Part shown: in pieces, positions 4,731-31,851 of the stretch | Numbering within the stretch: position 1 is the stretch's first letter | Layout of the letters: every line of letters starts with the position of its first letter | NCBI GenBank assembly: GCA_029250625.1 | Contig: JAQXEX010000029.1 | Span: 1-33,584 of the forward strand | Origin: Candidatus Poseidonia sp. | GTDB lineage: Archaea; Thermoplasmatota; Poseidoniia; Poseidoniales; Poseidoniaceae | Length of the DNA stretch: 33,584 nucleotides | Direction of reading: 5' to 3' | The notes under the pieces: model-generated | Seen by the model: the letters and a program-made list of their open reading frames with translations, nothing else | What the model was told of the DNA's origin: nothing | Database searches by the model: none | Made by a program: the position numbers and the translations under genes

Positions 4731-4823
4731 GAGGCTTCTGCCCTTCTTTATGGTGTTTTGAACACATTGAACCGGTGAGTGAGGTACCGATGTGCCTTTG
4801 AAGCGAGTCAACATGGACGGTAC

Positions 4824-6260
4824 ATGGGCGACGAAACGATGTGGATTGGAGGAGAATGGGTGGCGTCAACTGACGGTGCAACAAGTGATGTGCTGAACCC
4901 AGCAACAGGTGAACTCATGGCTACGGTACCCCGCGCTACCGTTGAAGATGTCAACCGCAGTGTTTCAGCATCACGTGCAGCCTTCAACAATTCCGATTGG
5001 AAGAACATGGACCCAGCACAGCGAGGAAGAATCCTCAACAAAATGGCTGCAGTCACCTATACTAAGGCTAAGGAACTGGCCGTTATTGAATCTTCAAACA
5101 ATGGAAAGACTTTCCGTGAAGCACTCTCTGAAATTCGTTATGGAGCTTGGACGTTGGAATACTTCGCAGGCCTATCCGATAAAATCGAGGGCAAGACCAT
5201 TCCAGTACCTGGTCCTCGCCTCAATTACACTCTTCGTCAACCCTTGGGCGTGACGGTGCATATTGTTCCGTGGAACTTCCCTCTGCAACTTGCCCTTCGT
5301 TCAATCGCACCTGCTCTAGCAGCGGGTTGTACGGTGATTGCAAAACCAGCTTCATGGACACCATTGTCCCTGCTTGCGTGGGCAAGAGCCATCGATGAGG
5401 CTGAAACTGGCCTTCCCTCAAGCGTTCTTCAGGTTCTGACGGGCTCAGGTGCCCTCGCAGGAGACGCTCTTGCCGGACACAGCGGTGTTGACGGTGTCGT
5501 CCTCACCGGTGGAGTTCCTACCGGAAAAACAGTCATGGCCAAGGCAAGCGAGCAGTTGACGCCAGTCACATTGGAACTTGGAGGAAAAGGTGCTAACATT
5601 GTCTTTTCAGACGCCAATTTGCGCTACGCAGCCAAAGCGATTTGCTTTGGTATCTTCATGAATGCCGGACAAATGTGTTGGGCAGGCTCCCGATTGCTCG
5701 TCCATGAAGACGTTCACGACGACCTGGTCAAGGCCGTGTGCGATGAGATTTCAAAGTGGCCTGTTGGGCCAGGTATGGAAGAGGGCGTGCGCATGGGTTC
5801 ACTTGTGCACTTGAATCACCGTGCAGAAGTATTGGAAAAACTCGAAAAAGGCCTTGCAGAAGGTGGAGAACTCGTTCTTGGGGGCAAAGCGCTTGACCGA
5901 GAGGGGGCGTTCATGGAAGCAACCGTTGTCACGGGTGTGGATCGCAGTCACCTTCTCTTCCAGGATGAATTGTTTGGCCCAGTATTGGCAGTCACTTCCT
6001 TCAGTACTGATGAAGAAGCCTTGGAGCTCGCCAACGATACTCCATTCGGTTTGTTAAACGGAGTTTGGACCAATGACTTGGGACGAGGGCATCGAATGGC
6101 TCGTGATTTGGAGTGCGGAATGGTATCCATCAACGAATACCCCATCACGTTCCCGCAAACTGCATTCACAGGTTGGAAGCACTCAGGAATTGGAATTGAA
6201 CAAAGTCAAGATGCCTTGCGGTTTTACACGAAGGTCAAGAACGTCAACGTCAAGTTGTGA
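4824..6260 (+). CDS. NAD(P)-dependent aldehyde dehydrogenase
   Basis: This full-length member of the aldehyde dehydrogenase superfamily has 478 residues from the ATG at 4824; ATG 4839 (MWIGGEW) is equally plausible. Visible motifs are the oxyanion Asn in VPWNFP (N151), Glu in LELGGKGAN (E251) and the catalytic Cys in NAGQMCWAGSR (C285). The family oxidises aldehydes to acids with NAD(P)+ through a thioester on this Cys. The usual FTGS before the cofactor loop is replaced by LTGG. It is followed 9 bp later by a PaaG-type crotonase on the same strand, so an aldehyde from aromatic or fatty acid breakdown is a reasonable substrate. It is close to the betaine/phenylacetaldehyde dehydrogenase type, but the substrate cannot be read from sequence. 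Confidence 0.9.
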   Translation: MGDETMWIGGEWVASTDGATSDVLNPATGELMATVPRATVEDVNRSVSASRAAFNNSDWKNMDPAQRGRILNKMAAVTYTKAKELAVIESSNNGKTFREALSEIRYGAWTLEYFAGLSDKIEGKTIPVPGPRLNYTLRQPLGVTVHIVPWNFPLQLALRSIAPALAAGCTVIAKPASWTPLSLLAWARAIDEAETGLPSSVLQVLTGSGALAGDALAGHSGVDGVVLTGGVPTGKTVMAKASEQLTPVTLELGGKGANIVFSDANLRYAAKAICFGIFMNAGQMCWAGSRLLVHEDVHDDLVKAVCDEISKWPVGPGMEEGVRMGSLVHLNHRAEVLEKLEKGLAEGGELVLGGKALDREGAFMEATVVTGVDRSHLLFQDELFGPVLAVTSFSTDEEALELANDTPFGLLNGVWTNDLGRGHRMARDLECGMVSINEYPITFPQTAFTGWKHSGIGIEQSQDALRFYTKVKNVNVKL

Positions 6261-6269
6261 AGTGATACA

Positions 6270-7049
6270 ATGGCCATTGAGATTGAAACAAACGACGGTA
6301 TCCGATTGATACGTATGGGAGGTCAAGCCTCAACTCAGTCGTTTTCAGAAGCGTTTCTTCCGAAGATTGCCCGGGCCATAGACGACGCTCTCAGCGATGG
6401 AGATGTCAAAGGAATCGTCCTTACTGGTGAGGGGAAGTTTTTCTCAGCAGGGGCCGACATCAATGCTTTTCAGCAATCGATTGATGATGAAAACGCTCCC
6501 GAATTGATTCGAAAGCTCACGGGAATCCTTCATCCTCTTCTGATCCGGATGCGTACTTCTCCGACCGTTGTTATCGCAGCGTTAAACGGCGTATCTGCGG
6601 GTGGTGGCTTAGGCTTAGCACTGGCATGCGATGCTCGCATCGGAACTTCGGATGCCCGTATGGCGGCATCCTATTCTGGCATGGGGCTTTCTCCAGATGG
6701 AGGAACAACCTGGCTTCTTCCACGTTTTGTTGGAGAGCCAGTTGCTCGTCGTTTTTTCCTTCAAAATCAAATTTGGTCTGGAGAAGAAGCCTGTTCTCAC
6801 GGCGCTATTGACCTCATCGTGGATCAAGATGCTTTACTCGCAACCGCTCATGAGTGGGCAGTCACCTGGTCATCATGGGGGATGCATACCAAAGAGGCTA
6901 CGAAGCATTTGCTTCATGTTCAAGCCGATAACGACTTTGAGACCCATCTCAACCATGAACGAACGTTGATTGAAGCGGCAGGGACCACTCCTGCATTCAA
7001 AGAAGGCGTCAAAGCGTTCTTAGAAAAGCGCCGACCAACATTTGATTGA
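6270..7049 (+). CDS. Crotonase-fold enzyme, PaaG-like enoyl-CoA isomerase/hydratase
   Basis: This 259-residue crotonase-superfamily protein has the oxyanion-hole segments FFSAGADI (residues 58-64) and NGVSAGGGLGLALACD (106-121). Standard enoyl-CoA hydratases have two catalytic Glu; here the first is Gly115 and the second falls in GLSPDGGTTWLLPR (139-152). The Asp in the G-x-x-PD-x-G stretch (D143) is the signature of PaaG-type isomerases, which act on the oxepin or dienoyl-CoA products of aromatic CoA epoxidation or shift double bonds. The gene directly follows the aldehyde dehydrogenase, probably in one transcript. It converges with the minus-strand membrane protein, their stops being 5 bp apart. 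Superfamily certain; PaaG-like reaction inferred from active-site pattern and the nearby BoxB operon. Confidence 0.82.
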   Translation: MAIEIETNDGIRLIRMGGQASTQSFSEAFLPKIARAIDDALSDGDVKGIVLTGEGKFFSAGADINAFQQSIDDENAPELIRKLTGILHPLLIRMRTSPTVVIAALNGVSAGGGLGLALACDARIGTSDARMAASYSGMGLSPDGGTTWLLPRFVGEPVARRFFLQNQIWSGEEACSHGAIDLIVDQDALLATAHEWAVTWSSWGMHTKEATKHLLHVQADNDFETHLNHERTLIEAAGTTPAFKEGVKAFLEKRRPTFD

Positions 7050-7054
7050 ACGAA

Positions 7055-7834
7055 TCATTGCATTTGATAGGCCACTTGAGGTTGCTTGCCCTTACTGAAG
7101 CGTAGCAACCCTACAATGAGGGCAATCATTCCAATACAAATTGAACAGCATCCAGCAAAACCACCGCCAGCAACTGCAATTCCGAGCCCGATGGATTCCT
7201 CAACCAGAGGGCCAAAAAGGTCTTCAAAATCAAGGAGGAACATGGTTGCTGAAGCGTTGTTTGAGACGGTGTATGTTGATCCAATGTCGCAGTCTTGGTC
7301 AACCTCTAATGTGCCACAAACCGTACCGACCTGTATTTTTCCATCCAATCCGAAATAGGTTGCTGAATTATTCCCCTCTTTATACTCACAGGTCATCATG
7401 AATGCACTTTCTGTGACGTCAATACCGTTGTTGGTAACCGTAAGTTCAAATTCTTCACAAGCATCAACCATCCCGTTTGAGTCGCTATCTGTATATTCTG
7501 CGGCGATGAAAATACCCCATCCAAATTCTCCAGCATTGTCTTCATCGGTGTGAACCGCATCAAAACTACTGCCTACCTCCTTGGTATATTCACTTCCGTC
7601 GAGATCTGACCAAAGTTCGACAGCCTGACTTCCCGCAGATGTGGCTATGATGAATGAAATGATTCCAAGAACTGCAAAGACTCCAGCGATGATCATTGGA
7701 ACTTTGGGTTTCTTATCAGGGCCTAAGGTAACGGGTACTGGAGAAAACGAATGGCCATTAACTTGTGCTCCAACAGGCTGAGCGCCAGTCGGGTTTGCTC
7801 CTTCGCCTTCAGTTCCGTAAATACTGGATTCCAT
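7055..7834 (-). CDS. Two-helix membrane protein with acidic, Cys-containing ectodomain
   Basis: This 259-residue protein belongs to no family I recognise. It has a Gly/Pro-rich cytoplasmic N-terminus (about 40 residues), one membrane helix at about 45-66, an acidic exposed domain of about 150 residues with several Cys and N-x-S/T sequons, a second helix near 215-245 and a short basic tail. In the ectodomain, DSDSNGMVDACEEFEL matches the calcium loop pattern of EF-hand/dockerin repeats (DxDxNGxxDxxE). The Cys pairs could form disulfides. It sits alone between the crotonase and the hydroxyacyl-CoA dehydrogenase and need not be functionally linked to them. Likely a surface protein; no catalytic role is visible. 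Confidence 0.7.
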   Translation of the reverse strand: MESSIYGTEGEGANPTGAQPVGAQVNGHSFSPVPVTLGPDKKPKVPMIIAGVFAVLGIISFIIATSAGSQAVELWSDLDGSEYTKEVGSSFDAVHTDEDNAGEFGWGIFIAAEYTDSDSNGMVDACEEFELTVTNNGIDVTESAFMMTCEYKEGNNSATYFGLDGKIQVGTVCGTLEVDQDCDIGSTYTVSNNASATMFLLDFEDLFGPLVEESIGLGIAVAGGGFAGCCSICIGMIALIVGLLRFSKGKQPQVAYQMQ

Positions 7835-7876
7835 GAAGTCTGCTCAGTTCCCTTGTAATTGAATCTATGGGAATGT

Positions 7877-8761
7877 TCACTCAATTGAGGTTTCTTCTGG
7901 ACTGCCGCTTGACCAATCGTAAATCCCCTTCCCACTTTTCTTTCCTAATCGGCCTTCTTCAACCAGCCGTTCAAGAAGAGGATGAGGCGCATATGACTCG
8001 TCTCCAAATGAGGTTTGCAGGTTTTTGAGTATGTCTCTGCGAACATCCAACCCAACCAAATCAGTGAGCGCAAGGGGCCCCATTGGGTGTTTGTAGCCCA
8101 ATACCATGGCGGTATCAATGTCCTTTGCACTGGCCACACCATCAGCGAGCATTCGAATGGCTTCATTTCCAAGAACAACGCCAAGTCGACTCGTTGCGAA
8201 TCCAGGTATGTCTTTGACAAGAATGGTCGTCTTGCCCATAGCGTCTCCAGCCGATTGAGCCAGAGCGATTGTAGCATCAGATGTTGAATCATGACGGACC
8301 AGTTCAAGGAGTTTCATGATGGGGACAGGATTGAAAAAATGCATCCCAATCACTTGTTCTGGACGTGTCGTTGCATTGGCTATGTCAGCGATGGATAGCG
8401 AAGATGTATTGGTGCCTAAAACTGCATGAGCGGGTGCATGCTTGTCAATTTCTTCAAACACTCTTTGTTTGAGGTCGGGAAGTTCAGGAACTGCTTCAAT
8501 GACCAGGTCTGCATTTCCAACGGCTTGAGCCATGTCGCTAACGGCGTGGAGGTTTGTATTCCATTCAGCCTTTTGTTCAGGAGAGGTTTTTCCTCGGGCG
8601 ATTCCTTTATCCCAAAATGCATCAATGCGCTCCATTCCTCTCTGAAGGCCGTCAGGAAAGGCATCATAGAGGGATGTATTCCAGCCAGCTTGTGCACAAA
8701 TTTGTGCAATGCCGGCGCCCATGGTTCCTGCTCCGATGACGGCAACGTTACGAATGCTCAT
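7877..8761 (-). CDS. 3-hydroxyacyl-CoA dehydrogenase
   Basis: This predicted 294-residue enzyme starts at the ATG at 8761, giving the compact MSIRNVAVIGAGTMGAGIAQ N-terminus with its Rossmann dinucleotide motif. The longer open frame up to 8842 adds a Lys-rich stretch overlapping the transporter and is rejected. GMHFFNPVPIMKLLELV carries the catalytic His, and the C-terminal helical domain includes LGYKHPMGPLALTDLVGLD. The enzyme oxidises (S)-3-hydroxyacyl-CoA to 3-oxoacyl-CoA with NAD+, as FadB-type, Hbd or PaaH. It is the last gene of the minus-strand operon that begins with the BoxB-like epoxidase, so a role in the lower part of aromatic acyl-CoA breakdown (PaaH-like) is plausible. Ordinary beta-oxidation is equally possible. 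Confidence 0.9.
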   Translation of the reverse strand: MSIRNVAVIGAGTMGAGIAQICAQAGWNTSLYDAFPDGLQRGMERIDAFWDKGIARGKTSPEQKAEWNTNLHAVSDMAQAVGNADLVIEAVPELPDLKQRVFEEIDKHAPAHAVLGTNTSSLSIADIANATTRPEQVIGMHFFNPVPIMKLLELVRHDSTSDATIALAQSAGDAMGKTTILVKDIPGFATSRLGVVLGNEAIRMLADGVASAKDIDTAMVLGYKHPMGPLALTDLVGLDVRRDILKNLQTSFGDESYAPHPLLERLVEEGRLGKKSGKGIYDWSSGSPEETSIE

Positions 8762-8783
8762 GGAGATGGGAGAAGGCCCACCT

Positions 8784-9707
8784 TCATGATGGTTGCTCGT
8801 TTTCTTCTTCTTGCTTTTGAGCGATGACCACTCCTGCAACAATCAGTGCAAAGGCGAGAATGAGCGTTGCTCCGAGTTGTTCACCAAGTAAAAACCAACC
8901 TCCGAGAATACCAAAGGGAGGGACGAGGTAAACGTAGAACGATGCCTTTCCGGCTCCAATGACAAGTATCCCGTCTGCAAACCACACGTATGCCAGCACT
9001 GTTGAGAATACGGCCAAAAATATGATTCCAACCCATGCCTCAAACGACGGTGAGGGCAGCCCTTCTCGGGCTATCTCGATTCCAGCCCATGGTGTGAGGA
9101 GCAGCAAGCCAACGAGGGACGCCCAGATCGTAACCAATACGGGGGTCAGCGGCTGTTGAGCATCTTCGGGAGTATCGCTCATGAGTTTCTTCATCAAAAT
9201 ACTGGATACAGCCCAAGCAAGGGCGGCGCCAGCGATGAAGGTGTTTCCAAACCAACGGTCCAATTCTGGTATGTCGGTGTTGGGCGATGCTGTGAAAATC
9301 ACAAGCATTCCCACCAATGCCATCGTGAGCCCTAGAATCAGGTTCCGTGTCAACCGTTCGCCGAGAAATATAACGGCGAGAACCGCAGTAAAGAGCGGAT
9401 TGAAGGTGATCACCAAGGATGCGTCACCTGCTGCAGTATATTTCATTCCATACATGAACAACGACTGGTAGAGAAACGTGGAAAAGAAAGCAATGTATGC
9501 GATATTTTTCCACTGGGTTGGTGATGGATATGACCAATTATCCTTGCGTTGCAGGTAGAAGATGAAGAGGCCCGCTACGATGAAATAACGTATCCATGCG
9601 GCGACAATTGGGCTGACATCTGCAGCCACAACCCGTCCAGCCGGCCAACCCAATCCCCAGATTGCTGCAACAACGAGGAGTTTAGCATGAATTTGAGCAT
9701 GTTTCAT
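8784..9707 (-). CDS. DMT-superfamily (EamA) transporter
   Basis: This 307-residue, mostly hydrophobic protein has about ten predicted membrane helices in two EamA repeats. The N-terminal AIWGLGWPAGRVVAADVSP and the mid-protein LAWAVSSILMKKL are typical of drug/metabolite exporters. It ends with a Glu/Gln-rich cytoplasmic tail. The start overlaps the stop of the preceding gene by 4 bases (9704-9707) and the dehydrogenase starts 22 bp after its stop, so it belongs to the BoxB operon. EamA proteins export amino acids, nucleotides and other small molecules; an aromatic or organic-acid substrate would fit the operon but is not shown by sequence. Confidence 0.85.
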   Translation of the reverse strand: MKHAQIHAKLLVVAAIWGLGWPAGRVVAADVSPIVAAWIRYFIVAGLFIFYLQRKDNWSYPSPTQWKNIAYIAFFSTFLYQSLFMYGMKYTAAGDASLVITFNPLFTAVLAVIFLGERLTRNLILGLTMALVGMLVIFTASPNTDIPELDRWFGNTFIAGAALAWAVSSILMKKLMSDTPEDAQQPLTPVLVTIWASLVGLLLLTPWAGIEIAREGLPSPSFEAWVGIIFLAVFSTVLAYVWFADGILVIGAGKASFYVYLVPPFGILGGWFLLGEQLGATLILAFALIVAGVVIAQKQEEENEQPS

Positions 9708-10240
9708 TCAAATCGCTCCAAACCAAGTTGTAACATGCGAGATCTCGGCAAACCGATTTCTGGCAGTCCCTTGGCTGGGGCGTGGAGCTTGAGGCCTTCA
9801 ATTCTGCTGACATACAATCCATAACTTGCAATATCGTCGGGCCGGTAGGGAGTTTCAAGTCCCATTTGGGTAAGGGCTTCACATGCTTTCTGCGAATATA
9901 TTGGGAAGGTATTGGTGGAAAAGTGCATCCATTCTGATACGCGCTGAGCATCAACGCCGTCAAGCGTAAGCAGATGTTCAAGAAGAGACACGTCTGGATA
10001 GGTTGCGGTTCGTAGCACCATTTCCACTTCGTTCACAACATCTTCGGGCCATGCATATGGATCTCTTTCAGCCCATTCATCAGCCACTCGTATGTGTTCA
10101 ACAGAGCGTTTTGATGTGACGGAATAGAGTGACTCGATGTACGAGCGGTCATCGTATGCATTGGATACCAACCGCGGCATTTCTTCATAGAAACGTTCAC
10201 ACTTGGCGACATCAATGCCGTATAGGGCTACGGGAATCAT
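9704..10240 (-). CDS. Uncharacterised soluble protein in the BoxB operon
   Basis: This predicted 178-residue protein matches no family I know. I place the start at 10240 (MIPVALYGIDVAKCERF), 16 bp after the BoxB-like stop. The longer frame to 10489 runs through the BoxB-like gene and its composition is that of a shadow. The sequence is acidic and helical, rich in Tyr, Asp and Glu, with no membrane helix, P-loop or metal-binding Cys cluster. It is translationally coupled to the transporter by an ATGA overlap. Its fixed place directly behind a di-iron oxygenase suggests an accessory role such as assembly or substrate handling. That is inference from position only. Confidence 0.6.
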   Translation of the reverse strand: MIPVALYGIDVAKCERFYEEMPRLVSNAYDDRSYIESLYSVTSKRSVEHIRVADEWAERDPYAWPEDVVNEVEMVLRTATYPDVSLLEHLLTLDGVDAQRVSEWMHFSTNTFPIYSQKACEALTQMGLETPYRPDDIASYGLYVSRIEGLKLHAPAKGLPEIGLPRSRMLQLGLERFE

Positions 10241-10256
10241 TTGAATCACTCGCCGT

Positions 10257-11417
10257 TCAAGCTTGCGTGCCGATTCCAGAAGCGATTTGCTTAGCAGACA
10301 TCGGTTTTTCGGCGACCCAATCAAGTTTGAAGAGTTCCTTGAGGTCTTCTTCATCCTGTGCAGTAGGGAGATGCTCGTGGATGTAGGTGGTCCATTCTTC
10401 ATCGCTTCCTTCGAATTTTGTTCCTTCGACCGTGAACTTTTGGCGCTTGAATGCACCAATTTCTCGATAGAAGTTTTCGTGCGGAACATAGAGTTTCACG
10501 GCGCCTTCAGGCAGGTATCCGTTGAGTTTTTCAACTTCAAGAGCGATTTCGTCGTGATAGTGTCCTCTGGCTTCTTCGTTGAGGGTCTCCTTGTTGACCT
10601 CATCTCCATTATCGAGCTTCTTGCGCTCGTCCCAGCGTCCTTTGATGCCCCAAACGTAGGACCAATGTGCTGATGATGAGGCGTCAACCCCAAACAAGTC
10701 GTGTGCTGTGGAGACCCACTTGTTGATGTAGCGCTGTAGCATATCACCTGGAATGACTCCGGCCTTGATGATGCGTCGGAGACCGTTAGAACCTGTTCCG
10801 AGGTGGAATGATTCTTCTTTGAGCATCGGTCCCATGCTTGCAGCCAGTGGCTTGAAAGCAGAGGTTGACAACATACCTAACTGGAATTTACCATCTCGGT
10901 CAACGAACATGGTGTAGCAAAAGAAATCCAACCAATGCGGCATAGGGCGGTTAAATGCTCCGAGCAGTCGGTCGCCATCTTGTGCATTTCGCTCAAGCAG
11001 TTTTTGCGCCTCTCTTCGTCCTTGTTGGCCGAAATAGGTCATCAGAAGATAGGCCATTTGCCATCCATGGCGTTGTTCTTCCGCCATAATCCGAGCCGCT
11101 GCATATCGGTCATAATCAGTTGGTGCTGTGGCGAGCAAATGTCGTTGTTGCTCGACCGATGCAAACTCTGTGTCTCCTTGGACGGTGATCATGCTGACGA
11201 GGGCGTCTCGCATACTCTGATGAGGGACTTGGAGCGACCGCTCCCACTTGGCTCGCCCTTCGTAGTCTCCAAATTCGATAACGTCTCCAGCGCGCTCCCA
11301 GTCAAATTGGATGGAGAGGTCAAAATCACCCATCCATTCTCGCTTGAAACCTACGTTATCTTGCCATGTGGCGAAATTGCTAATCCAGTCGTCCCATGTC
11401 TTCGGTAGGTTGTCCAT
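10257..11417 (-). CDS. BoxB-like benzoyl-CoA 2,3-epoxidase, di-iron oxygenase component
   Basis: This 386-residue ferritin-like di-iron protein strongly resembles BoxB, the oxygenase that epoxidises the ring of benzoyl-CoA. Matching stretches are VQGDTEFASVEQQRHL (residues 79-93, candidate iron ligand E84), AEEQRHGWQMAYLL (112-125, ligands E114 and H117), VDRDGKFQL (172-180) and MLKEESFHLG (198-207, ligands E202 and H205). Both ExxH motifs are intact. It is about 80 residues shorter than bacterial BoxB, missing mainly N- and C-terminal parts. PaaA of phenylacetyl-CoA epoxidase is a more distant relative. It heads an operon with an orphan gene, a transporter and a dehydrogenase. The partner reductase (BoxA) is not adjacent. 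A TATA box 27 bp before the ATG implies a leaderless mRNA. Confidence 0.85.
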   Translation of the reverse strand: MDNLPKTWDDWISNFATWQDNVGFKREWMGDFDLSIQFDWERAGDVIEFGDYEGRAKWERSLQVPHQSMRDALVSMITVQGDTEFASVEQQRHLLATAPTDYDRYAAARIMAEEQRHGWQMAYLLMTYFGQQGRREAQKLLERNAQDGDRLLGAFNRPMPHWLDFFCYTMFVDRDGKFQLGMLSTSAFKPLAASMGPMLKEESFHLGTGSNGLRRIIKAGVIPGDMLQRYINKWVSTAHDLFGVDASSSAHWSYVWGIKGRWDERKKLDNGDEVNKETLNEEARGHYHDEIALEVEKLNGYLPEGAVKLYVPHENFYREIGAFKRQKFTVEGTKFEGSDEEWTTYIHEHLPTAQDEEDLKELFKLDWVAEKPMSAKQIASGIGTQA

Positions 11418-11440: not shown

Positions 11441-11477
11441 TATATATCCTCTACGAACATATTCGCACGAACATGTT
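11441..11477 (-). promoter_or_regulatory. Leaderless promoter and tandem operator upstream of the BoxB-like gene
   Basis: TATATAT at 11441-11447 is centred 27 bp from the ATG at 11417, the spacing expected when transcription starts at the start codon. Just upstream (higher coordinates) are two copies of a 10-bp repeat, CGAACATATT at 11454-11463 and CGAACATGTT at 11468-11477 as read on the plus strand, 14 bp apart start to start. They sit where archaeal activators or repressors bind next to BRE/TATA. The neighbouring HTH_10 regulator is an obvious candidate ligand. The repeats are visible; their function is inferred. Confidence 0.6.
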
Positions 11478-12117
11478 AGGGGCTCTGTCTACGGATTTCG
11501 TCAGTGAACGCATGAAATACTGCGGATTCAATGCGGTGAAGTTGGGTTGAAAGCGTAGATTTTGCCACGCCGAGAACCTTGGCCAATTCCGAGAGATTGA
11601 TCCGTCGAGGCACATCCCAGAATCCCTCGCGAGTAGCGACTTCAAACACTTCTCGTTGCCGAGTTGTAAGGAGTCGTGAACGAGAATTTCGCGTGGAGAG
11701 CAGGCGGTGAGGCAGTTGGTCGGTTCGAAAGCGATGAATGAGTTCTCTCACCTCGTCGCGGCGACCTTCAATGGTCCACTCCACCCATCCATCTCGCACT
11801 TCAAACGGTGTTCTTGGAACGATTCCTATGTCGACAAGAGGGCGGACAAATCCACCTCCTCCGGCAGAGATGTTGACGCTGAAATGCCCGTCTTCTATGC
11901 CGTTGTACTCATCAATCCCTTCGTGTGACACGAGATTGTTCTCAAGGGATTCATCGCACCAACAACGAGCGGTTCCTCTTCCTCTGCTCAACGGCATGTG
12001 CTGTTCTATCCGAAGGGTTGCGGAGGGGTGCGCTCTCGTAACATCTCCTGCCCAATGTCCTTCTGGAAGGCGGACATCAATTCGGATTTGCTGAAGCATT
12101 GCTGTTGACTCCTTCAT
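11476..12117 (-). CDS. HTH_10 (Bat-type) transcriptional regulator
   Basis: This 213-residue protein has an N-terminal beta-rich sensor-like domain (about 1-135) and a C-terminal HTH_10 domain at about 150-200. The latter shows LTTRQREVFEVATREGFWDV, INLSELAKVLGV and KSTLSTQLHRIE, the hallmark of the archaeal bacterio-opsin activator family. The start at 12117 overlaps the GlpX stop by 4 bases (ATGA); an alternative ATG is at 12099. It lies between glpX and the BoxB operon on the same strand, with its stop inside the tandem repeats described for that promoter. Family members often regulate a neighbouring operon, so it is the likely regulator of the BoxB genes. The sensor ligand, possibly a CoA ester, is unknown. 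Confidence 0.87.
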   Translation of the reverse strand: MKESTAMLQQIRIDVRLPEGHWAGDVTRAHPSATLRIEQHMPLSRGRGTARCWCDESLENNLVSHEGIDEYNGIEDGHFSVNISAGGGGFVRPLVDIGIVPRTPFEVRDGWVEWTIEGRRDEVRELIHRFRTDQLPHRLLSTRNSRSRLLTTRQREVFEVATREGFWDVPRRINLSELAKVLGVAKSTLSTQLHRIESAVFHAFTDEIRRQSP

Positions 12118-15331: not shown

Positions 15332-16222
15332 ATGCCCCCCCTTGTGGCTCTTGACATGAGCGACCTATACGGATTGAAACTCGAGCCTATGCCTAACCGC
15401 CTTGTCAACTACGGCGTGACCGAAAATGGAATCGCCGTCATTGAACTTACTTCAGATTCCGCTGGAGCTCCTCTTGAAGGCACGAACGACCGTTCGCCAA
15501 ACACCTACACCCACGGCATGATGCGAGACATTGACGAAGCCGTCGTCCGAGCCCGATTTGATGACGACGTCACATGCATCGTCTTGACCGGTAACGGAGC
15601 CTCCTTTTTCTCCGCAGGCGCATCCATTCAAATGTTGAACAGCGTCACGCCCGGCTTCAAGTACAATTTTTGCCTTCACGCAAACGAAACACTTTCCCGC
15701 TTTGAGCAAACCTCTAAACTTGTTGTTTGCGCTATTAACGGCCACGCCGTTGGCGGTGGACTGGAAATTGCAATGGCTGCAGACATCCGTATCGCACGAA
15801 AGAACTCTGGAAAGGTTGGCCTTCCAGAAATCAACCTCGGTGTCCTTGCCGGAACCGGAGGTACAGCACGTTTGACTCGCCTCATCGGCAAGGCAAAGGC
15901 GCTTGAAATGATGGTTACTGGGGAACTCATGTCCTTTGAGGACGCCCATTCATGCAACCTCATCAACCACATCTGGGAAGGAGATGCAGATGACTTCCGC
16001 CGAGATGTCCTCGATTGGTGCAGTCAATTCACCCTTCCAAACAAGGCTGTCAAGGCTGTTGGAAACATCAAGCGTTCATGCCAGACCGGACCTGAAATTC
16101 CCTTTGAGTACCATCTTGCCCTCGAGCGAGAACTCCAAGCTTCCCTGTTCAACAGTACCGATGCAAAGGAAGGAATTGCAGCCTACGTTGAGAAGCGTGT
16201 TGCCAACTTCACCGGCCAGTGA
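15332..16222 (+). CDS. Enoyl-CoA hydratase (crotonase family)
   Basis: This 296-residue crotonase keeps both catalytic Glu expected for hydratases: E145 in GGGLEIAMAADIRIA and E166 in GLPEINLGVLAGTGGT. The oxyanion-hole segment is FFSAGASIQ (92-100). It should hydrate 2-enoyl-CoA to 3-hydroxyacyl-CoA in beta-oxidation or a related CoA pathway. This contrasts with the PaaG-type paralogue at 6270. The ATG at 15332 follows a TTAAAT element by about 29 bp with no Shine-Dalgarno, so a leaderless start is possible; ATG 15356 is an alternative. The N-terminus has about 30 extra residues compared with minimal hydratases. The aldolase gene follows after 24 bp. Confidence 0.9.
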   Translation: MPPLVALDMSDLYGLKLEPMPNRLVNYGVTENGIAVIELTSDSAGAPLEGTNDRSPNTYTHGMMRDIDEAVVRARFDDDVTCIVLTGNGASFFSAGASIQMLNSVTPGFKYNFCLHANETLSRFEQTSKLVVCAINGHAVGGGLEIAMAADIRIARKNSGKVGLPEINLGVLAGTGGTARLTRLIGKAKALEMMVTGELMSFEDAHSCNLINHIWEGDADDFRRDVLDWCSQFTLPNKAVKAVGNIKRSCQTGPEIPFEYHLALERELQASLFNSTDAKEGIAAYVEKRVANFTGQ

Positions 16223-17985: not shown

Positions 17986-18040
17986 GAGGTGAAGTTAATG
18001 AATGAAAGACGACTACGGATGTTTGAGGTGAAGAAGGTTG
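17986..18040 (+). promoter_or_regulatory. Two successive Shine-Dalgarno/start pairs before the 835-residue gene
   Basis: GAGGTGA at 17986-17992 is 5 bases from ATG 17998, which opens a 39-codon frame ending at 18117. A second GAGGTGA at 18025-18031 is 6 bases from TTG 18038, the start of the large gene, in another frame. The short frame overlaps the large gene's start and could act as a leader peptide coupling or limiting its translation. Otherwise the first pair is fortuitous. Confidence 0.5.
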
Positions 18041-20545
18041 CCCAGCAGAAGGATTCGTTCAGTCGCCCACCGCAGAATTCTTCTTTGGTTGAGTCAAGGT
18101 CCGAGTACGGTTTCTGAAATTGCTCAGCAATTCAGCATGCGAATGCCGCACGCGTCGCTTGCATGCCGTCAATTACGGGCTACAGGTGATGTTTACCGCG
18201 ATGATGCAGGCGGCATTCGTAACGCCCTTCTCTACCTCACGCAGGCTGGCATTGAACGAATCGAAGAGGATGGATTGGCTAAGGTAAAACTCCACATTGG
18301 TACAATCCCGTTCGGAAAGGATGGAATCATTCTGCAATCGGATGACCAACATATCTCGGTTGGTTACCTTCAACCTCCTAAATCTCCTTTGAATTTCATT
18401 CCCGATGCTGTAAACTCCCGTTCTGAATCTTCCAATGGAAATGCAGGGGGGGTGTGGGTGCTGTTTCAAACTCAACACATTCGCTGGTATGATCTTGCAA
18501 CGCTCACTCCTACAGAAGCCCCACAGTATGCTGCGAGTGGAACACTTGATGATTTCAGCGTAAGTCCAACGAAAATAGGTATTGTTAGGGGGGCGGTATT
18601 GGAGCGCAACGATACGTCAAGTGTGCTTGAAGGCCGATGGTTCTCAACCCTCCAGTCAACATCACCACCTACATCACTGCTCCAAGGGGACACCGTACTA
18701 GGGACGGTTGAGGGTACGTCATACGGATACGCTCCTCCTCATGGAACCCATGCTGATTTACCATCTTCCTTAGACCGAACATTGGTATTCAACGCCATGG
18801 GTCAAGGCTGCTCAGTATTGAGTGAGCAGAACAGTGAGGGCCAGAAAGATTTGCCCTTGGAAGTGCTCCGTTCGTGGTTACGTTTACGCCATCCGAGAAT
18901 GTCAACAGACAAGCTCAACGAGCGTTATGAGGATTTGAAGTTACAATTGGATTCTGGAATGACCCGTGTCCCTTTGCCGATCAGGCGCGACCTCATTGCC
19001 GACTTTGGTACCGTACATTGGAGTGATTTACATTTCGAAGCGGCTCGAGTTGACCTGTACGGTGTTTCTCCTCTCGGTCTTCACGCTCTATGTGAGCATG
19101 TATTGAACCATGCTCGTACTCCCTTTGTAATAGAGTGGCCGTTTCCACACCCGGACCAATCCCTGCTGGAGCGGGTTTTGACTCACCCCATGTGCAAAAT
19201 GCTGGTGACCCGACACTTGGATGGAATGATGCTTCCAAGCGCAACGGTCCACATCAAAGATTCACCTGTGCTCGCTCAACTCAAGGTTCATCTCAACAGG
19301 TCAGCAGTTCTGCCGCTCAATCTGGAATCAAAGCCAGTTCCTCCACAGCAACATCAATTGCTTGAACTCTTTCCTCTTCATGCTGAAGAATTGATTGCAT
19401 CATGTATGACTGCCGAAATGAATCCCATACACTTCACAAGAATTGTTTCTGATGCAAAAGAGGCTGAAGTGATGATGAATGCTCTCGATGTGTTCCCCAC
19501 GGGTCACGAAACAATGGCGAATGAATTGGAAACGAAGTGGCCCATCGCAGCATGGATTGCATCGCCCCCCGATGGGAGGGTAAGCCGCTGGATTCGACTT
19601 CAAGATCGCCTTCCAAGAGGTTGGATCAATCTTCTGCCACCTCAGCACATTGACCTCAGGACGCTCGCACATTCCCTTCACAAAGGACTTGGGACATGGC
19701 AGGAGAAGGCATTTCGGCGATTAACCTTGGAATTGCGGTCATATCCAGAAATTCTCCTCGGCCTTTCTACCTCGTTGGGTGATGATGAGAAGAAGTCGTG
19801 GCTTGCCGCCGTTGTCCTTGGTGCCTCATCATCACTGGGCGGCGAATTCGATGAATTGATGAAAAAAGGGAGTGCGGAATGGTTGAACCATCCATGTCTT
19901 CCGCATCTTGTCCTCCCGATGGTTTTTCCTTCAAACAGAGCCATTGATTCCGAGCGTCACCTTCTCTTGGACCAATGGCTGAAGGCTGCCCGGGAGCACC
20001 CGGAAAAATCATTCATGAGTTTATGGGCTAAGGCAATTCATACAATACAACGTAACGAACCGTGGATTTCCGACGATGTGCGCTCTCTTATGCAACATCT
20101 TCCTCAACTTTGGTGGGCGCCTTATGCGAGTCAATGGCTCATTTCTCAACTCAACACCTCATCGGGTCGGACCTGGCTGAAGGAACAATCAATTTCTTGG
20201 CCCGCTCTGCTCGCCCATCCCAAGGGACAACGAGGTGGACTCCCAGGCGCCCATCAACAGCACCCTGGATACAATCTTTCTACGGAGGACCTTATGGGTG
20301 TTAAATTGCTTCAACCCGGCTTGGGGACACCCTCGTTGAACGATCTCTTTGACATGACATATGCACTGGAACAAGGGTTGCCGGTTCCGACATCACAAAC
20401 ACACCCAGAGGCTGCTTGGTTGGTTCAACCGATCGAGTCTTGGCCAAACTTCCCCCCTGAAATCATTGACGAAGGTGATTCTTCTATCGGTTTATTGCTC
20501 TATTCAAGGTCGTTTTCAGCACGTCAACAAATGACGATGGATTGA
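18038..20545 (+). CDS. Large protein with N-terminal winged-helix domain, function unknown
   Basis: This 835-residue protein starts at TTG 18038, chosen because GAGGTGA lies 6 bases upstream and in-frame ATG 18002 runs into a stop. Residues about 8-75 form a MarR-like winged helix (HRRILLWLSQGPSTVSEIAQ, then MRMPHASLACRQLRATGDVY, then the RNALLYLTQAG wing). The remaining ~750 residues are soluble and contain no P-loop, nuclease or metal motif that I recognise. They are leucine-rich and helical with many Trp/Pro-containing loops (WPIAAWIASPPDGRVSRW). No membrane helices or coiled coils stand out. It is transcribed away from the candidate origin. It could be a regulator or a chromosome-associated protein; no function is claimed. 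Confidence 0.75.
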   Translation: MPSRRIRSVAHRRILLWLSQGPSTVSEIAQQFSMRMPHASLACRQLRATGDVYRDDAGGIRNALLYLTQAGIERIEEDGLAKVKLHIGTIPFGKDGIILQSDDQHISVGYLQPPKSPLNFIPDAVNSRSESSNGNAGGVWVLFQTQHIRWYDLATLTPTEAPQYAASGTLDDFSVSPTKIGIVRGAVLERNDTSSVLEGRWFSTLQSTSPPTSLLQGDTVLGTVEGTSYGYAPPHGTHADLPSSLDRTLVFNAMGQGCSVLSEQNSEGQKDLPLEVLRSWLRLRHPRMSTDKLNERYEDLKLQLDSGMTRVPLPIRRDLIADFGTVHWSDLHFEAARVDLYGVSPLGLHALCEHVLNHARTPFVIEWPFPHPDQSLLERVLTHPMCKMLVTRHLDGMMLPSATVHIKDSPVLAQLKVHLNRSAVLPLNLESKPVPPQQHQLLELFPLHAEELIASCMTAEMNPIHFTRIVSDAKEAEVMMNALDVFPTGHETMANELETKWPIAAWIASPPDGRVSRWIRLQDRLPRGWINLLPPQHIDLRTLAHSLHKGLGTWQEKAFRRLTLELRSYPEILLGLSTSLGDDEKKSWLAAVVLGASSSLGGEFDELMKKGSAEWLNHPCLPHLVLPMVFPSNRAIDSERHLLLDQWLKAAREHPEKSFMSLWAKAIHTIQRNEPWISDDVRSLMQHLPQLWWAPYASQWLISQLNTSSGRTWLKEQSISWPALLAHPKGQRGGLPGAHQQHPGYNLSTEDLMGVKLLQPGLGTPSLNDLFDMTYALEQGLPVPTSQTHPEAAWLVQPIESWPNFPPEIIDEGDSSIGLLLYSRSFSARQQMTMD

Positions 20546-26094: not shown

Positions 26095-27348
26095 ATGGGT
26101 GAGAACTGGTCAGCAAAAAATCCGTACATGACAAAAATTACAGAGAATTACATTCTCAACGGGGAAGGTTCCCGCAAAGAAACCCGTCACGTGGTCTTCG
26201 AATTGGGTGATTCCGGCTTGGATTACAAAGTCGGAGACGCATTGGGTGTCTTGGCTGAAAACCCCCCACACATTGTGGACGAAATCATTGAAGCCCAAGG
26301 ATGGGACCGAGACCATGCTGTAACCACACACAACGGGGACCGTTCCCTGTACGACGCACTCAAGAAGGACTTTGAAGTTCATCTTGCCAATAAGAAGTTC
26401 GTTCAGTCCTTGGCTGCAAAGGTGGTATCAAGTGGGATGAACATTTCCATGAGCATCGTTTCACGAACCAGGAACCAATCATCCTGGACTTCATCAACCG
26501 ATGAACAACTCCCGCCTTCCCTACAAGCCTCAGTTCCATCGGACGACCCAAGCGACCAAATCGCAGCAATTACCGTCGACCCAAAGTCCATTGAAGATTA
26601 CCTATGGACTCGAGATTATGTTGATATCATGCGAGAGTTTGATGTCAAGTATTCTCCAGAAGAATTCTTGGACCTTGCAGATCGGTTGAAGCCACGCCTC
26701 TATTCCATTGCATCATCTCATGATGCCCATCCAGGATACGTTGAACTTACCGTCGGTATTGTTCGGTTTGAATACAACAACCGTCCTCGTGGTGGATTGT
26801 GTACTCAATTCATGGCCGATGAAATCGATACATCTGGCGCTCCTATCGGGGTGTTTATGTCTCCCACAAAGTCGTTTATTCTGCCCGAAGACAAGGATGT
26901 CGACATCATTATGGTAGGGCCCGGGACCGGTATTGCTCCATTCCGTGCATTCATGGAACAGCGGGTCTTTGACGGTGGCAAGGGTAAGAACTGGCTGTTC
27001 TTTGGTGACCAATCATCAAAGACAGAATTTTACTACAAAGATACGATTGAAACATGGATGGATGAGGGAGACCTGTACCGGTTCACGACCGCTTGGTCAC
27101 GAGACCAAGAGGAAAAAATCTACGTCCAACATCGCTTGAAAGAACACGGTGCAGAAGTTTGGGAATGGTTTGAGCGTGGAGCGTATTTCTACATCTGTGG
27201 CGATAAGAAATACATGGCAAAAGATGTCCACAAGGCGCTCATCGATATTGCAATCGAACACGGCGGCATGTCGGAAGCAGATGCCACTCACTTTATTGAG
27301 AAAACCATGATGAAAGAACAGAAGCGCTACCTTCGTGACGTTTACTGA
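26095..27348 (+). CDS. CysJ-type FAD/NADP(H) reductase without flavodoxin domain
   Basis: This 417-residue protein corresponds to the ferredoxin-NADP reductase half of sulfite reductase flavoprotein CysJ. PRLYSIASS binds FAD, RGGLCTQFMAD is the second FAD loop, GPGTGIAPFRAF binds NADP pyrophosphate, and FFGDQSSKTEFYY, YICGDKKYMAKDVHKAL and the terminal RYLRDVY match CysJ. The N-terminal part (about 15-180) contains the connecting domain, as shown by LGVLAENPP. No flavodoxin domain is encoded directly upstream, so electrons would pass to an external carrier or enzyme. It may serve sulfite reductase or another oxygenase; BoxA, the reductase of BoxB, also carries an FNR module, but linkage to the BoxB gene here is only speculative. 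Confidence 0.88.
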   Translation: MGENWSAKNPYMTKITENYILNGEGSRKETRHVVFELGDSGLDYKVGDALGVLAENPPHIVDEIIEAQGWDRDHAVTTHNGDRSLYDALKKDFEVHLANKKFVQSLAAKVVSSGMNISMSIVSRTRNQSSWTSSTDEQLPPSLQASVPSDDPSDQIAAITVDPKSIEDYLWTRDYVDIMREFDVKYSPEEFLDLADRLKPRLYSIASSHDAHPGYVELTVGIVRFEYNNRPRGGLCTQFMADEIDTSGAPIGVFMSPTKSFILPEDKDVDIIMVGPGTGIAPFRAFMEQRVFDGGKGKNWLFFGDQSSKTEFYYKDTIETWMDEGDLYRFTTAWSRDQEEKIYVQHRLKEHGAEVWEWFERGAYFYICGDKKYMAKDVHKALIDIAIEHGGMSEADATHFIEKTMMKEQKRYLRDVY

Positions 27349-30360: not shown

Positions 30361-31851
30361 TCAATCGTCCAACTGTCGAACTCTTCGGTCGTCTTCATGA
30401 ACCGATGCCTTGAGGTCTGCAAAGGAGATGTCATCAAGATTGGTCGGCTGACGCTCGGTATCCATTTCCCCAACAGTGGCCAACATGGTATCGATTTTCC
30501 CTTGAAGTCGGTCCATCTCATCTTGTCCAAACACGCCCCCGTTCTCACTAGCGAGGCTGCGTAGCACTTCGCCAGTTTGCTCTTCGTGAGCTTGTTGTGC
30601 CTGCTCACGTAGGGCTGATGATGTATTGCTTGTCCCGTAAGGGGAAGGCCTTGATGGCCCCTTTGTTCCTGAAAGAATCTCGGTGGCTACTTTGCGCAAC
30701 TGACCAAAGAATCCCCTGGGGCTTTCTGCCGTTCGTGGGCGCGGTTGCGGACGATGGCGAGGTCGGAAAGAGGACCGAGCCAAATCCTGTTGCTTACGCG
30801 GTTGTAAGAGTGGTCTTTCACGTTCAAGAGTAATGTTTTGACGAGGCAGTGGAAGAATCTCGACCTCGTCTTCGTCTGGAATGGTGTCAATGAAGGGAAT
30901 CAGTTCAGCATCCAAGAGCAAGGGTTCTTCTTCCTCTTCCATCGGTTCCTGAGTTCGCTGCGGGATATGCACTTCATCTTGTCCGATAAAAGACGGCAAG
31001 TAGGGTTGAGGTGTTCTGTACTCTTGGGAAGGCCGGGCCCCTTCTTGATGCATAGGAGGTCGCCGTTGTGGTTCCAAGACCGGAAGATGAACAGGTACTG
31101 GATGATGGTCAGCAGGATATCTTGCTCGTTCCGCAGCGGCCTGCTCAGAGTGCCACGTGGAGAGGAAGCTGGGGAGAATCGTAGGCTGGGAAGGTTCGGG
31201 TGCATGCGTAGGCATCCATTCAGGTTCCTGCTCTTGGTAGTGAGGCACTGTCTCAATCACCTCATCTTCACCAAGAGATGAAAGGAACATATCGATCGGA
31301 ACTGGGGCATTGATGACCACCGGCAGTTCTGGAGCTGGAACCAACCCCTCCTGTTCATGATATGAGCGGTCAACGGCATTCCAGGCCAATCGAGCGTAAG
31401 CTATACTCTTGCCTTTCAACAATTTGTTAACCATGAAGGTGAGGTGCCTGAGAACGTGTTCGTTGCCGAACAAAACATGGGTGTCGTTTGATGCAGTTTG
31501 AACGGTGACGGTAGGTTGTCTGGTAAAGATTCGTGCGAAAACAGTTGCTCCTCCAAGCAACATGAACGACCACCGGTATGTGGGGGGTATCATCAATCTC
31601 CATCCGATCCAAATGAAGACAAGACCCATCATCAGCAACCAATTCGGTACAAGGTTGGATGAATGATGTTGAACGCTGTCAATGGCTCCAACGCGCACGT
31701 TGATCGCTGAACTTCGCCGACCTTGAATGGTCAGCATGCGCTCGTCTAAGCTGATATTGACCCGTTCCGACGGTTCCGCCAAACGTAGCGAAGTGAACAA
31801 CTCTGTATCACTTTCACTCGTTGGTACAGATTCCTGCCCAATTTCGTGCAT
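30361..31851 (-). CDS. Membrane-anchored protein with long Pro/Glu/Arg-rich disordered region
   Basis: This 496-residue protein has an N-terminal soluble segment (about 1-65) with SLDERMLTIQGRRSSAI, then two membrane helices near 70-88 and 93-108. A small basic domain follows (about 110-165). From about 170 to 420 the sequence is low-complexity: rich in Pro, Glu, Gln and Arg, with acidic runs (EEEEEP) and basic runs (RPRHRPQPRPR). The C-terminal ~70 residues look helical (EVLRSLASENGGVFGQDEMDRL). I know no family. The first part resembles a small PH-like/bPH domain on a membrane stalk, but this is a weak impression. The tail may bind partners or nucleic acid. It follows the EF-Tu-like gene on the same strand after 100 bp. 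Confidence 0.7.
   Translation of the reverse strand: MHEIGQESVPTSESDTELFTSLRLAEPSERVNISLDERMLTIQGRRSSAINVRVGAIDSVQHHSSNLVPNWLLMMGLVFIWIGWRLMIPPTYRWSFMLLGGATVFARIFTRQPTVTVQTASNDTHVLFGNEHVLRHLTFMVNKLLKGKSIAYARLAWNAVDRSYHEQEGLVPAPELPVVINAPVPIDMFLSSLGEDEVIETVPHYQEQEPEWMPTHAPEPSQPTILPSFLSTWHSEQAAAERARYPADHHPVPVHLPVLEPQRRPPMHQEGARPSQEYRTPQPYLPSFIGQDEVHIPQRTQEPMEEEEEPLLLDAELIPFIDTIPDEDEVEILPLPRQNITLERERPLLQPRKQQDLARSSFRPRHRPQPRPRTAESPRGFFGQLRKVATEILSGTKGPSRPSPYGTSNTSSALREQAQQAHEEQTGEVLRSLASENGGVFGQDEMDRLQGKIDTMLATVGEMDTERQPTNLDDISFADLKASVHEDDRRVRQLDD

Follow-up and report, generated by a model that had tools for sequence, protein, structure and literature searches.

The locus described here raises the question of whether an uncultured marine archaeon can open aromatic rings with oxygen on coenzyme A (CoA) thioesters, by a route best known in bacteria. 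It lies in a 33,584-nucleotide contig of Candidatus Poseidonia sp. (JAQXEX010000029.1; hereafter the window, meaning this whole stretch) and centres on a 386-amino-acid (aa) protein that resembles the ring epoxidase BoxB and belongs to a family of short BoxB-like proteins, which we call BoxBL. The order concerned, Candidatus Poseidoniales (Marine Group II, MGII; phylum Thermoplasmatota), is uncultured and comprises two families, f1 and f2. According to PMC6461757, no other planktonic archaea of the surface ocean reach the abundance of its members.

A preliminary description of the sequence had proposed that an archaeon carries genes for an O2-dependent aromatic acyl-CoA pathway, and this is the best-supported reading of the data presented below: the fold, the iron site, a BoxC-like partner and paa-type neighbours all favour it. 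A canonical Box pathway is not supported. Family relations, conservation of the iron ligands, gene linkage and distribution are direct observations; we infer every reaction of a compact aerobic CoA-dependent pathway of aromatic ring cleavage, a hybrid of the Box and Paa routes, to which we assign a probability of roughly 0.7.

The BoxBL protein and its predicted iron site

The gene in question is the following:
10257..11417, minus strand: BoxBL, 386 aa, short BoxB-like protein, a putative di-iron acyl-CoA epoxidase

The BoxB motifs quoted for this open reading frame (ORF) in the preliminary description are present, and both profile and structure searches place the protein next to BoxB. It matches the NCBIfam equivalog model of BoxB (TIGR03225) with 229 bits (E 1e-67), which does not reach the cut-off of 499.1; five other BoxBL proteins score 214-240 bits and a true BoxB, from Mycetohabitans, 894. 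The Pfam family PaaA_PaaC is matched with 58 bits (cut-off 28.5) and the PaaA equivalog with 40.6 bits, below its cut-off of 280. A sequence search of the PDB returned BoxB first (3per, E 3.9e-54), with the Sulfolobus entry 4mud and PaaA as the next matches. The predicted structural model (31 sequences; predicted local distance difference test, pLDDT, 95.3) likewise retrieved BoxB first in Foldseek (template modelling score by query 0.80-0.87), and superposed on BoxB with a VIA Z score of 42.4 over 371 residues at 2.2 A, compared with a Z of 22 for PaaA. As had been noted from the sequence, the enzyme is shorter than bacterial BoxB, by about 90 residues. In its predicted structure BoxBL has the fold of BoxB, yet it is not a canonical BoxB.

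The six iron ligands of BoxB, i.e. Glu120, Glu150, His153, Asp211, Glu240 and His243, were taken for the alignment from PMC5489048, as were the roles of the second-shell and substrate residues. They align with E84, E114, H117, D173, E202 and H205 of BoxBL, which agrees with the earlier statement that all ligand positions are intact. In a scan of named genomes (outgroup-led alignment) at least 518 relatives were confirmed; the best 80 were kept, all of approximately full length and 56-67% identical to the query. All six ligands are present in each of these 80 loci and in every one of 28 full-length archaeal sequences except L057, which has Gly at the position of Glu84 (E84->G) and is possibly inactive or affected by a sequencing error.

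The second-shell and substrate residues are conserved to varying extents. Q116, T119, S123 and F193 (BoxB numbering) are retained in every BoxBL and short sequence of the alignment, F203 in all full-length BoxBL except two, and the position of F206 is occupied by Y or F. The three PaaA sequences have H, S and G in place of Q116, T119 and S123, and F at F193. Thr210, which precedes the Asp ligand, is replaced by V or I in all full-length BoxBL except two, and by V in PaaA. Since Q116, T119, S123 and F193 are kept but Thr210 is changed, the BoxBL pocket is predicted from the alignment to be BoxB-like on the carbonyl side and different on the ring side.

In the tree, BoxBL and canonical BoxB form one clade (support 99/99), separate from PaaA and from the short proteins of family f6. 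The BoxBL of the order are monophyletic (100/99) with L051 as sister (100/99), and in a tree rooted on BoxB all included Thermoplasmatota sequences form a single clade (97/96) among bacterial BoxBL. A topology with BoxBL as a clade excluding BoxB was rejected by the approximately unbiased (AU) test (p 1.4e-6), but the BoxB branch is very long (at least 2.7 changes per column), and because of this length no firm conclusion is drawn on whether BoxBL or BoxB is older.

Distribution and operon of BoxBL

BoxBL is a nearly universal gene of the order. Among 193 genomes, an even draw from the larger group, it was matched in 170, nearly always as a single copy. All 34 genomes of near-complete quality (completeness 90% or higher, contamination 5% or lower) had it, and so did 21 of 21 genera. 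Two families and 21 genera fit the account of Poseidoniales in PMC6461757 as well as the taxonomy. Across the phylum 146 of 389 Thermoplasmatota genomes matched; none was found in the eight genomes listed for family f3 of the same class. Families f4, f15, f21, f31, f32 and f39 contain full-length relatives; those of f6 and f22 are shorter. The best 80 of the relatives belong, by record title, mainly to Acidobacteriota and Gemmatimonadota, with Rokubacteria, Tectomicrobia, Planctomycetota, Armatimonadota and others also among them, together with three archaeal contigs (L071, L075, L123). The record of L071 is titled Proteobacteria (Centralia_MAG_189) and matches G231 of the archaeal phylum, so that the title looks wrong or the bin mixed. 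Canonical BoxB encoded on plasmids is only 35-39% identical to BoxBL. The window protein is no archaeal peculiarity: it represents one of the branches of BoxBL, a family of short proteins that many kinds of bacteria also carry.

In the window, BoxBL is followed by three genes on the same strand and preceded by a possible regulator:
9704..10240, minus strand: orf178 (our name), 178-aa gene product, predicted all-helical, starting 16 nt after BoxBL
8784..9707, minus strand: EamA-family transporter, accessory
7877..8761, minus strand: 3-hydroxyacyl-CoA dehydrogenase (HCDH), operon copy, likely ATG at 8761 (listed ORF to 8842)
11476..12117, minus strand: HTH_10 regulator, just upstream of BoxBL

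The operon with a transporter and an HCDH that had been described is thus present; orf178, lying between BoxBL and the transporter, had been missed, as had the BoxC-like partner and the spread of the family. The spacing is tight, with 16 nt between BoxBL and orf178, a 4-nt overlap between orf178 and EamA, and 22 nt between EamA and HCDH (counted from ATG 8761). We compared 20 loci of the order (12 of f1 and 8 of f2), and because the order BoxBL, orf178, HCDH on one strand recurs in all 20, this arrangement is not due to chance. The EamA gene is regarded as accessory since it stands between orf178 and HCDH in 11 of 12 f1 loci but in only one of eight f2 loci; the HTH_10 gene lies upstream of BoxBL in 10 and two of them, respectively.

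The orf178 gene also adjoins BoxBL in L051, L052 and L054-L057. Apart from the window copy the family numbers 28 ORFs (two on duplicate contigs), found in archaeal loci only among those examined. Profile searches gave no Pfam, NCBIfam or PDB match, and a fold search with its model (pLDDT 80.6, from only three sequences) gave a best Foldseek E of 0.89.

The operon HCDH stands beside BoxBL in 21 of 21 order genomes, 16 of which contain another stand-alone HCDH and all of which contain a longer 3HCDH protein; the four f3 genomes examined, without BoxBL, each have a single stand-alone HCDH. The operon copy looks dedicated to the BoxBL module. At L062 (G216, family f22) a short BoxB-like gene is convergent with an HCDH gene, and a gene for a pcaF-like thiolase (42%) follows after about 2 kb, which suggests a reduced version of the module.

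Two Acidobacteriota loci carry a uracil-DNA-glycosylase-family gene within the BoxBL cluster (L091 7518-8084, mug-like; L106 7548-8099), and relatives of it occur anywhere in the locus in nine of the 80 named-scan loci; such a gene is perhaps a guard against reactive epoxides. Elsewhere in the window, the ORF at 18038-20545 (835 aa) has no Pfam or NCBIfam match and that at 30361-31851 (496 aa) no Pfam match.

A BoxC-like crotonase and paa-type neighbours

Three further genes, all on the opposite strand, complete the candidate module:
15332..16222, plus strand: ECH2 (our name), single-domain BoxC-like crotonase, 296 aa, proposed ring opener, here outside the BoxBL operon
6270..7049, plus strand: PaaG-like crotonase
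4824..6260, plus strand: aldehyde dehydrogenase, likely ATG at 4824 (listed ORF from 4779)

By sequence identity, ECH2 is the most conserved partner of BoxBL. Of the 20 order loci, 15 include it in the stretch retrieved, with identities of 64-96%; the values are 51-73% beside other BoxBL and 46-48% beside the short proteins of f6. At 45% identity or more it occurs in 58 of the 80 named-scan loci. In seven loci of the order (L041, L043, L044, L047-L050) it lies directly upstream on the same strand, its stop codon 54-81 nt before the BoxBL start; in six f6 loci the distance to the short BoxB-like gene is -10 to 62 nt, again on one strand. The earlier remark that BoxC is not adjacent consequently holds for full-length BoxC and fails for this single-domain relative in other lineages. 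According to PMC4498308, BoxC is recovered together with BoxB on purification and is required to lift the product inhibition of the latter; relief of this kind would explain the tight linkage between ECH2 and BoxBL.

The kinship of ECH2 with BoxC was assessed in several ways. Profiles were run on 45 genomes (21 of the order, four other Thermoplasmatota and 20 reached through named-scan loci, one of the last probably archaeal). The BoxC model (TIGR03222) gave one partial match per order genome, at most 20 kb from BoxBL in 20 of 21, and was over its cut-off in none of the 45; ECH2 as a full BoxC was set aside on this ground. With the N-terminal domain of BoxC as query, 82 full-length ECH2 sequences had a median of 77.7 bits, versus 30.9 for 102 other crotonase ORFs, and 61 of the 82 outscored all 102. 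In the tree a split supported at 98/97 separates ECH2, BoxC and two crotonases of haloarchaeal paa-like clusters from all 16 other crotonases. ECH2 has Glu at both crotonase Glu positions. Haloarchaeal plasmids (L154, L156) carry a second, paa-like set of genes that is distinct from the standard paa operon and contains PaaA/PaaC-like and PaaB-like genes, an ECH2-like crotonase and an acyl-CoA dehydrogenase, with a UbiD decarboxylase nearby.

The preliminary description had also placed a PaaG-type crotonase and an aldehyde dehydrogenase near the operon on the other strand, and both are there, the second to the left of the region it had indicated (ORF 4779-6260). The crotonase has E. coli PaaG as best PDB match (4fzw_C, 115 bits) and scores 151 bits with the NCBIfam PaaG model (cut-off 345). 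Its closest group in the tree consists of crotonases encoded in haloarchaeal paa clusters (94/84), and this group nests in a larger one with PaaG-like crotonases of Gemmatimonadota and Acidobacteriota (97/96). For the aldehyde dehydrogenase the best NCBIfam matches are BADH-type models, and the 15 best plasmid matches listed are all haloarchaeal (47.8-50.2%). Five of these haloarchaeal loci were inspected: in three, annotated paa genes are no more than 6 kb away, and in the other two beta-oxidation genes are adjacent. The paa cluster of Haloferax larsenii holds a further related aldehyde dehydrogenase.

In one bacterial locus, Gemmatimonadota L126, the operon comprises genes for TetR, ECH2, aldehyde dehydrogenase, pcaF-like thiolase (534.7 bits; cut-off 597), PaaG-like crotonase, BoxBL, GDPD, HCDH, PaaF-like crotonase and Amidohydro_2, and covers the lower steps common to the Box and Paa routes. 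The PaaJ/PcaF thiolase profile had matches in 45 of 45 genomes, over the cut-off in two; in G063 a thiolase (491.6 bits) lies about 9 kb from BoxBL.

The proposed pathway and its alternatives

In the proposed pathway the di-iron site of BoxBL would consume O2 and two electrons, and the aromatic ring of an acyl-CoA would become epoxidised. ECH2 would then open this ring, in its epoxide or oxepin form, and yield a dehydro-acyl-CoA semialdehyde. The semialdehyde would be oxidised by the aldehyde dehydrogenase, a double bond shifted by the PaaG-like crotonase, and the product converted by a hydratase, the operon HCDH and a thiolase, through beta-oxidation, to central acyl-CoAs.

The aromatic acyl-CoA is probably made inside the cell in this order, because no aromatic acid-CoA ligase was found over its cut-off there (ADP-forming acyl-CoA synthetases were not searched). 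Our first guess, with a chance approaching one half, is phenylacetyl-CoA formed from phenylalanine via phenylpyruvate, the simplest guess because the group is described as proteolytic (PMC6461757); 19 of 21 order genomes match E1-alpha of the 2-oxoacid dehydrogenase complex with 327-352 bits, below the cut-off. Benzoyl-CoA comes second and is rather unlikely, followed by another aromatic acyl-CoA. Indolepyruvate oxidoreductase (IOR) as source of the CoA ester was discarded. A tryptophan/anthranilate route, raised by the Amidohydro_2 gene, was also dropped: an akin amidohydrolase stands in haloarchaeal paa clusters, and among the papers listed by one literature search none showed such a link.

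As for electrons, one candidate donor is encoded in the window:
26095..27348, plus strand: CysJ-type FAD/NADP reductase without a flavin mononucleotide (FMN) domain, 417 aa, which may serve sulfite reduction

One such reductase is present in each of the 21 order genomes and shares the BoxBL contig in 17, a nearness that regional synteny alone could explain. It was rejected as a BoxA, since it matches the C-terminal ferredoxin-NADP reductase (FNR) part only and is closest to CysJ. It was not detected in the four other Thermoplasmatota, and matches in four of the 20 genomes reached via named-scan loci are weak.

Several observations weigh against the proposed pathway. The operon contains neither a reductase nor a CoA ligase. 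BoxA (TIGR03224) is over its cut-off in 0 of 45 genomes, with weak C-domain matches in 25; within the order, benzoate-CoA ligase (TIGR02262) is over its cut-off in 0 of 21 genomes (weak matches in two), and neither PaaK (TIGR02155) nor the IOR alpha subunit is found in any of the 21 at E 1e-20. For the phenylpyruvate step the E1-alpha matches are the only evidence, none is over the cut-off, and they also occur in three of four f3 genomes. ECH2 lies kilobases away on the opposite strand in the window (3.9 kb) and in the majority of f1 loci; at 45% identity or more it is missing from 22 of the 80 named-scan loci, some of them on short contigs, and four 19-kb stretches (L083, L084, L085, L087) show no partner at all. 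Its kinship with BoxC is only relative, because both profile and PDB searches put generic enoyl-CoA hydratases first (2ppy 194 bits; BoxC 2w3p 70 bits, rank 52). In addition, 21 of the 82 ECH2 sequences score under the highest-scoring of the other crotonases, which is encoded in a haloarchaeal paa-like cluster, and the BoxC branch of the crotonase tree measures 3.1 changes per column. Finally, L057 is an archaeal BoxBL without one iron ligand.

The strongest alternative, which we consider improbable, is a diverged standard Box benzoate pathway, with BoxBL acting on benzoyl-CoA, ECH2 as BoxC, the aldehyde dehydrogenase as BoxD and the 417-aa reductase or a ferredoxin system in place of BoxA. 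The retained BoxB pocket residues, the grouping of ECH2 with BoxC and the BoxA-like C-domain matched in each of the 21 order genomes would fit it, as would benzoate-CoA ligase over the cut-off in nine of the 45 genomes (one of the four other Thermoplasmatota, eight of the 20 reached via named-scan loci). However, the order has no such ligase over the cut-off, the cut-offs of BoxB, BoxA and BoxC are all unreached, Thr210 near the ring is V or I in nearly all BoxBL and V in PaaA, and the reductase is CysJ-like and undetected in the four other Thermoplasmatota. The earlier caution that substrate and route may differ from those of bacteria agrees with these results.

There is also a small chance that BoxBL is not catabolic or does not act on aromatics, e.g. 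that it hydroxylates or desaturates aliphatic acyl-CoA for lipid or cofactor synthesis amid housekeeping beta-oxidation genes. The gene belongs to the core of small genomes, which is unusual for a peripheral catabolic trait, neither a ligase nor a dedicated reductase was found, and the authors of PMC9723583 read MGII HCDH transcription as fatty acid oxidation. What speaks against it is that in archaea as well as bacteria the gene is linked to a BoxC-like crotonase, an aldehyde dehydrogenase of paa type and a crotonase resembling PaaG, that the BoxB substrate residues are retained, and that the order genomes have further HCDH genes. A remnant or altered canonical Paa pathway with a PaaA-type epoxidase, to which the PaaA_PaaC match and the paa-type neighbours might point, is very unlikely: PaaB (PF06243) is found in 0 of 45 genomes while 3 of 14 control genomes are positive, PaaK is over its cut-off in 0 of 45 (weaker matches in six), the PaaA equivalog score is far below its cut-off, and the structural Z for BoxB is about twice that for PaaA.

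If the proposed ring-cleavage pathway is correct, a universal ring-epoxidation module would give Poseidoniales a general role in aromatic carbon turnover, would explain the dedicated HCDH and would provide a compact relative for studying the evolution of BoxB and BoxC. More tentatively, at somewhat less than even odds, BoxBL and ECH2 may constitute a minimal and hitherto unreported system for the aerobic cleavage of rings on CoA thioesters, common to archaea and many bacterial phyla, within which BoxB and BoxC possibly arose; it might be a universal core trait of Poseidoniales for using aromatic amino acids or other aromatics with O2, and part of the transcripts assigned to "fatty acid oxidation" might belong here.

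Word searches of the main texts of three Poseidoniales genome or transcriptome papers returned no aromatic ring degradation, and the open-licence literature searched contained no description of a BoxB-like gene set in Poseidoniales or of the BoxBL family, which is weak evidence. Alkane (alkB), xylene (xylM) and related genes have been reported by annotation in a few MGII metagenome-assembled genomes (PMC8166890), and catechol-to-tricarboxylic-acid-cycle enzymes in 175 Thermoplasmatota genomes including Poseidoniales (PMC9535955); the parts of these two papers available to us name no BoxB-like set, and BoxB, benzoyl-CoA and phenylacet- are absent from the main text of the second. A survey of Paa found ligase-associated archaeal cases only in Halobacteria, according to PMC13186573, whose main text lacks the word BoxB. 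Box clusters have been surveyed via benzoate-CoA ligase (PMC10803450), an approach that would miss loci without this ligase.

Compared with known systems, the BoxBL module is a mosaic. BoxBL resembles BoxB, the benzoyl-CoA 2,3-epoxidase of Azoarcus evansii (PDB 3pm5, 3q1g), in fold over nearly the whole chain, in the six iron ligands and in Q116/T119/S123/F193/F203; it differs in its shorter length, its score under the equivalog cut-off, the V/I at Thr210 and the lack of BoxA. SSO1313 of Sulfolobus solfataricus (4mud), the next PDB match after BoxB, belongs to the same superfamily, but with 235 aa it is without N- and C-terminal parts and is 24-27% identical. ECH2 groups with the N-terminal crotonase domain of BoxC, yet it has one domain (296 aa in the window, versus 556) and scores far under the BoxC cut-off. 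The haloarchaeal Paa phenylacetyl-CoA pathway contains kin of the aldehyde dehydrogenase and PaaG-like crotonase of the window, a helix-turn-helix (HTH) gene that adjoins the epoxidase genes and whose similarity to that of the window is confined to 52 residues, and an amidohydrolase 28% identical to that of the Gemmatimonadota BoxBL operon; the BoxBL module differs from it in having no PaaB or PaaK over cut-off and an epoxidase that is BoxB-like.

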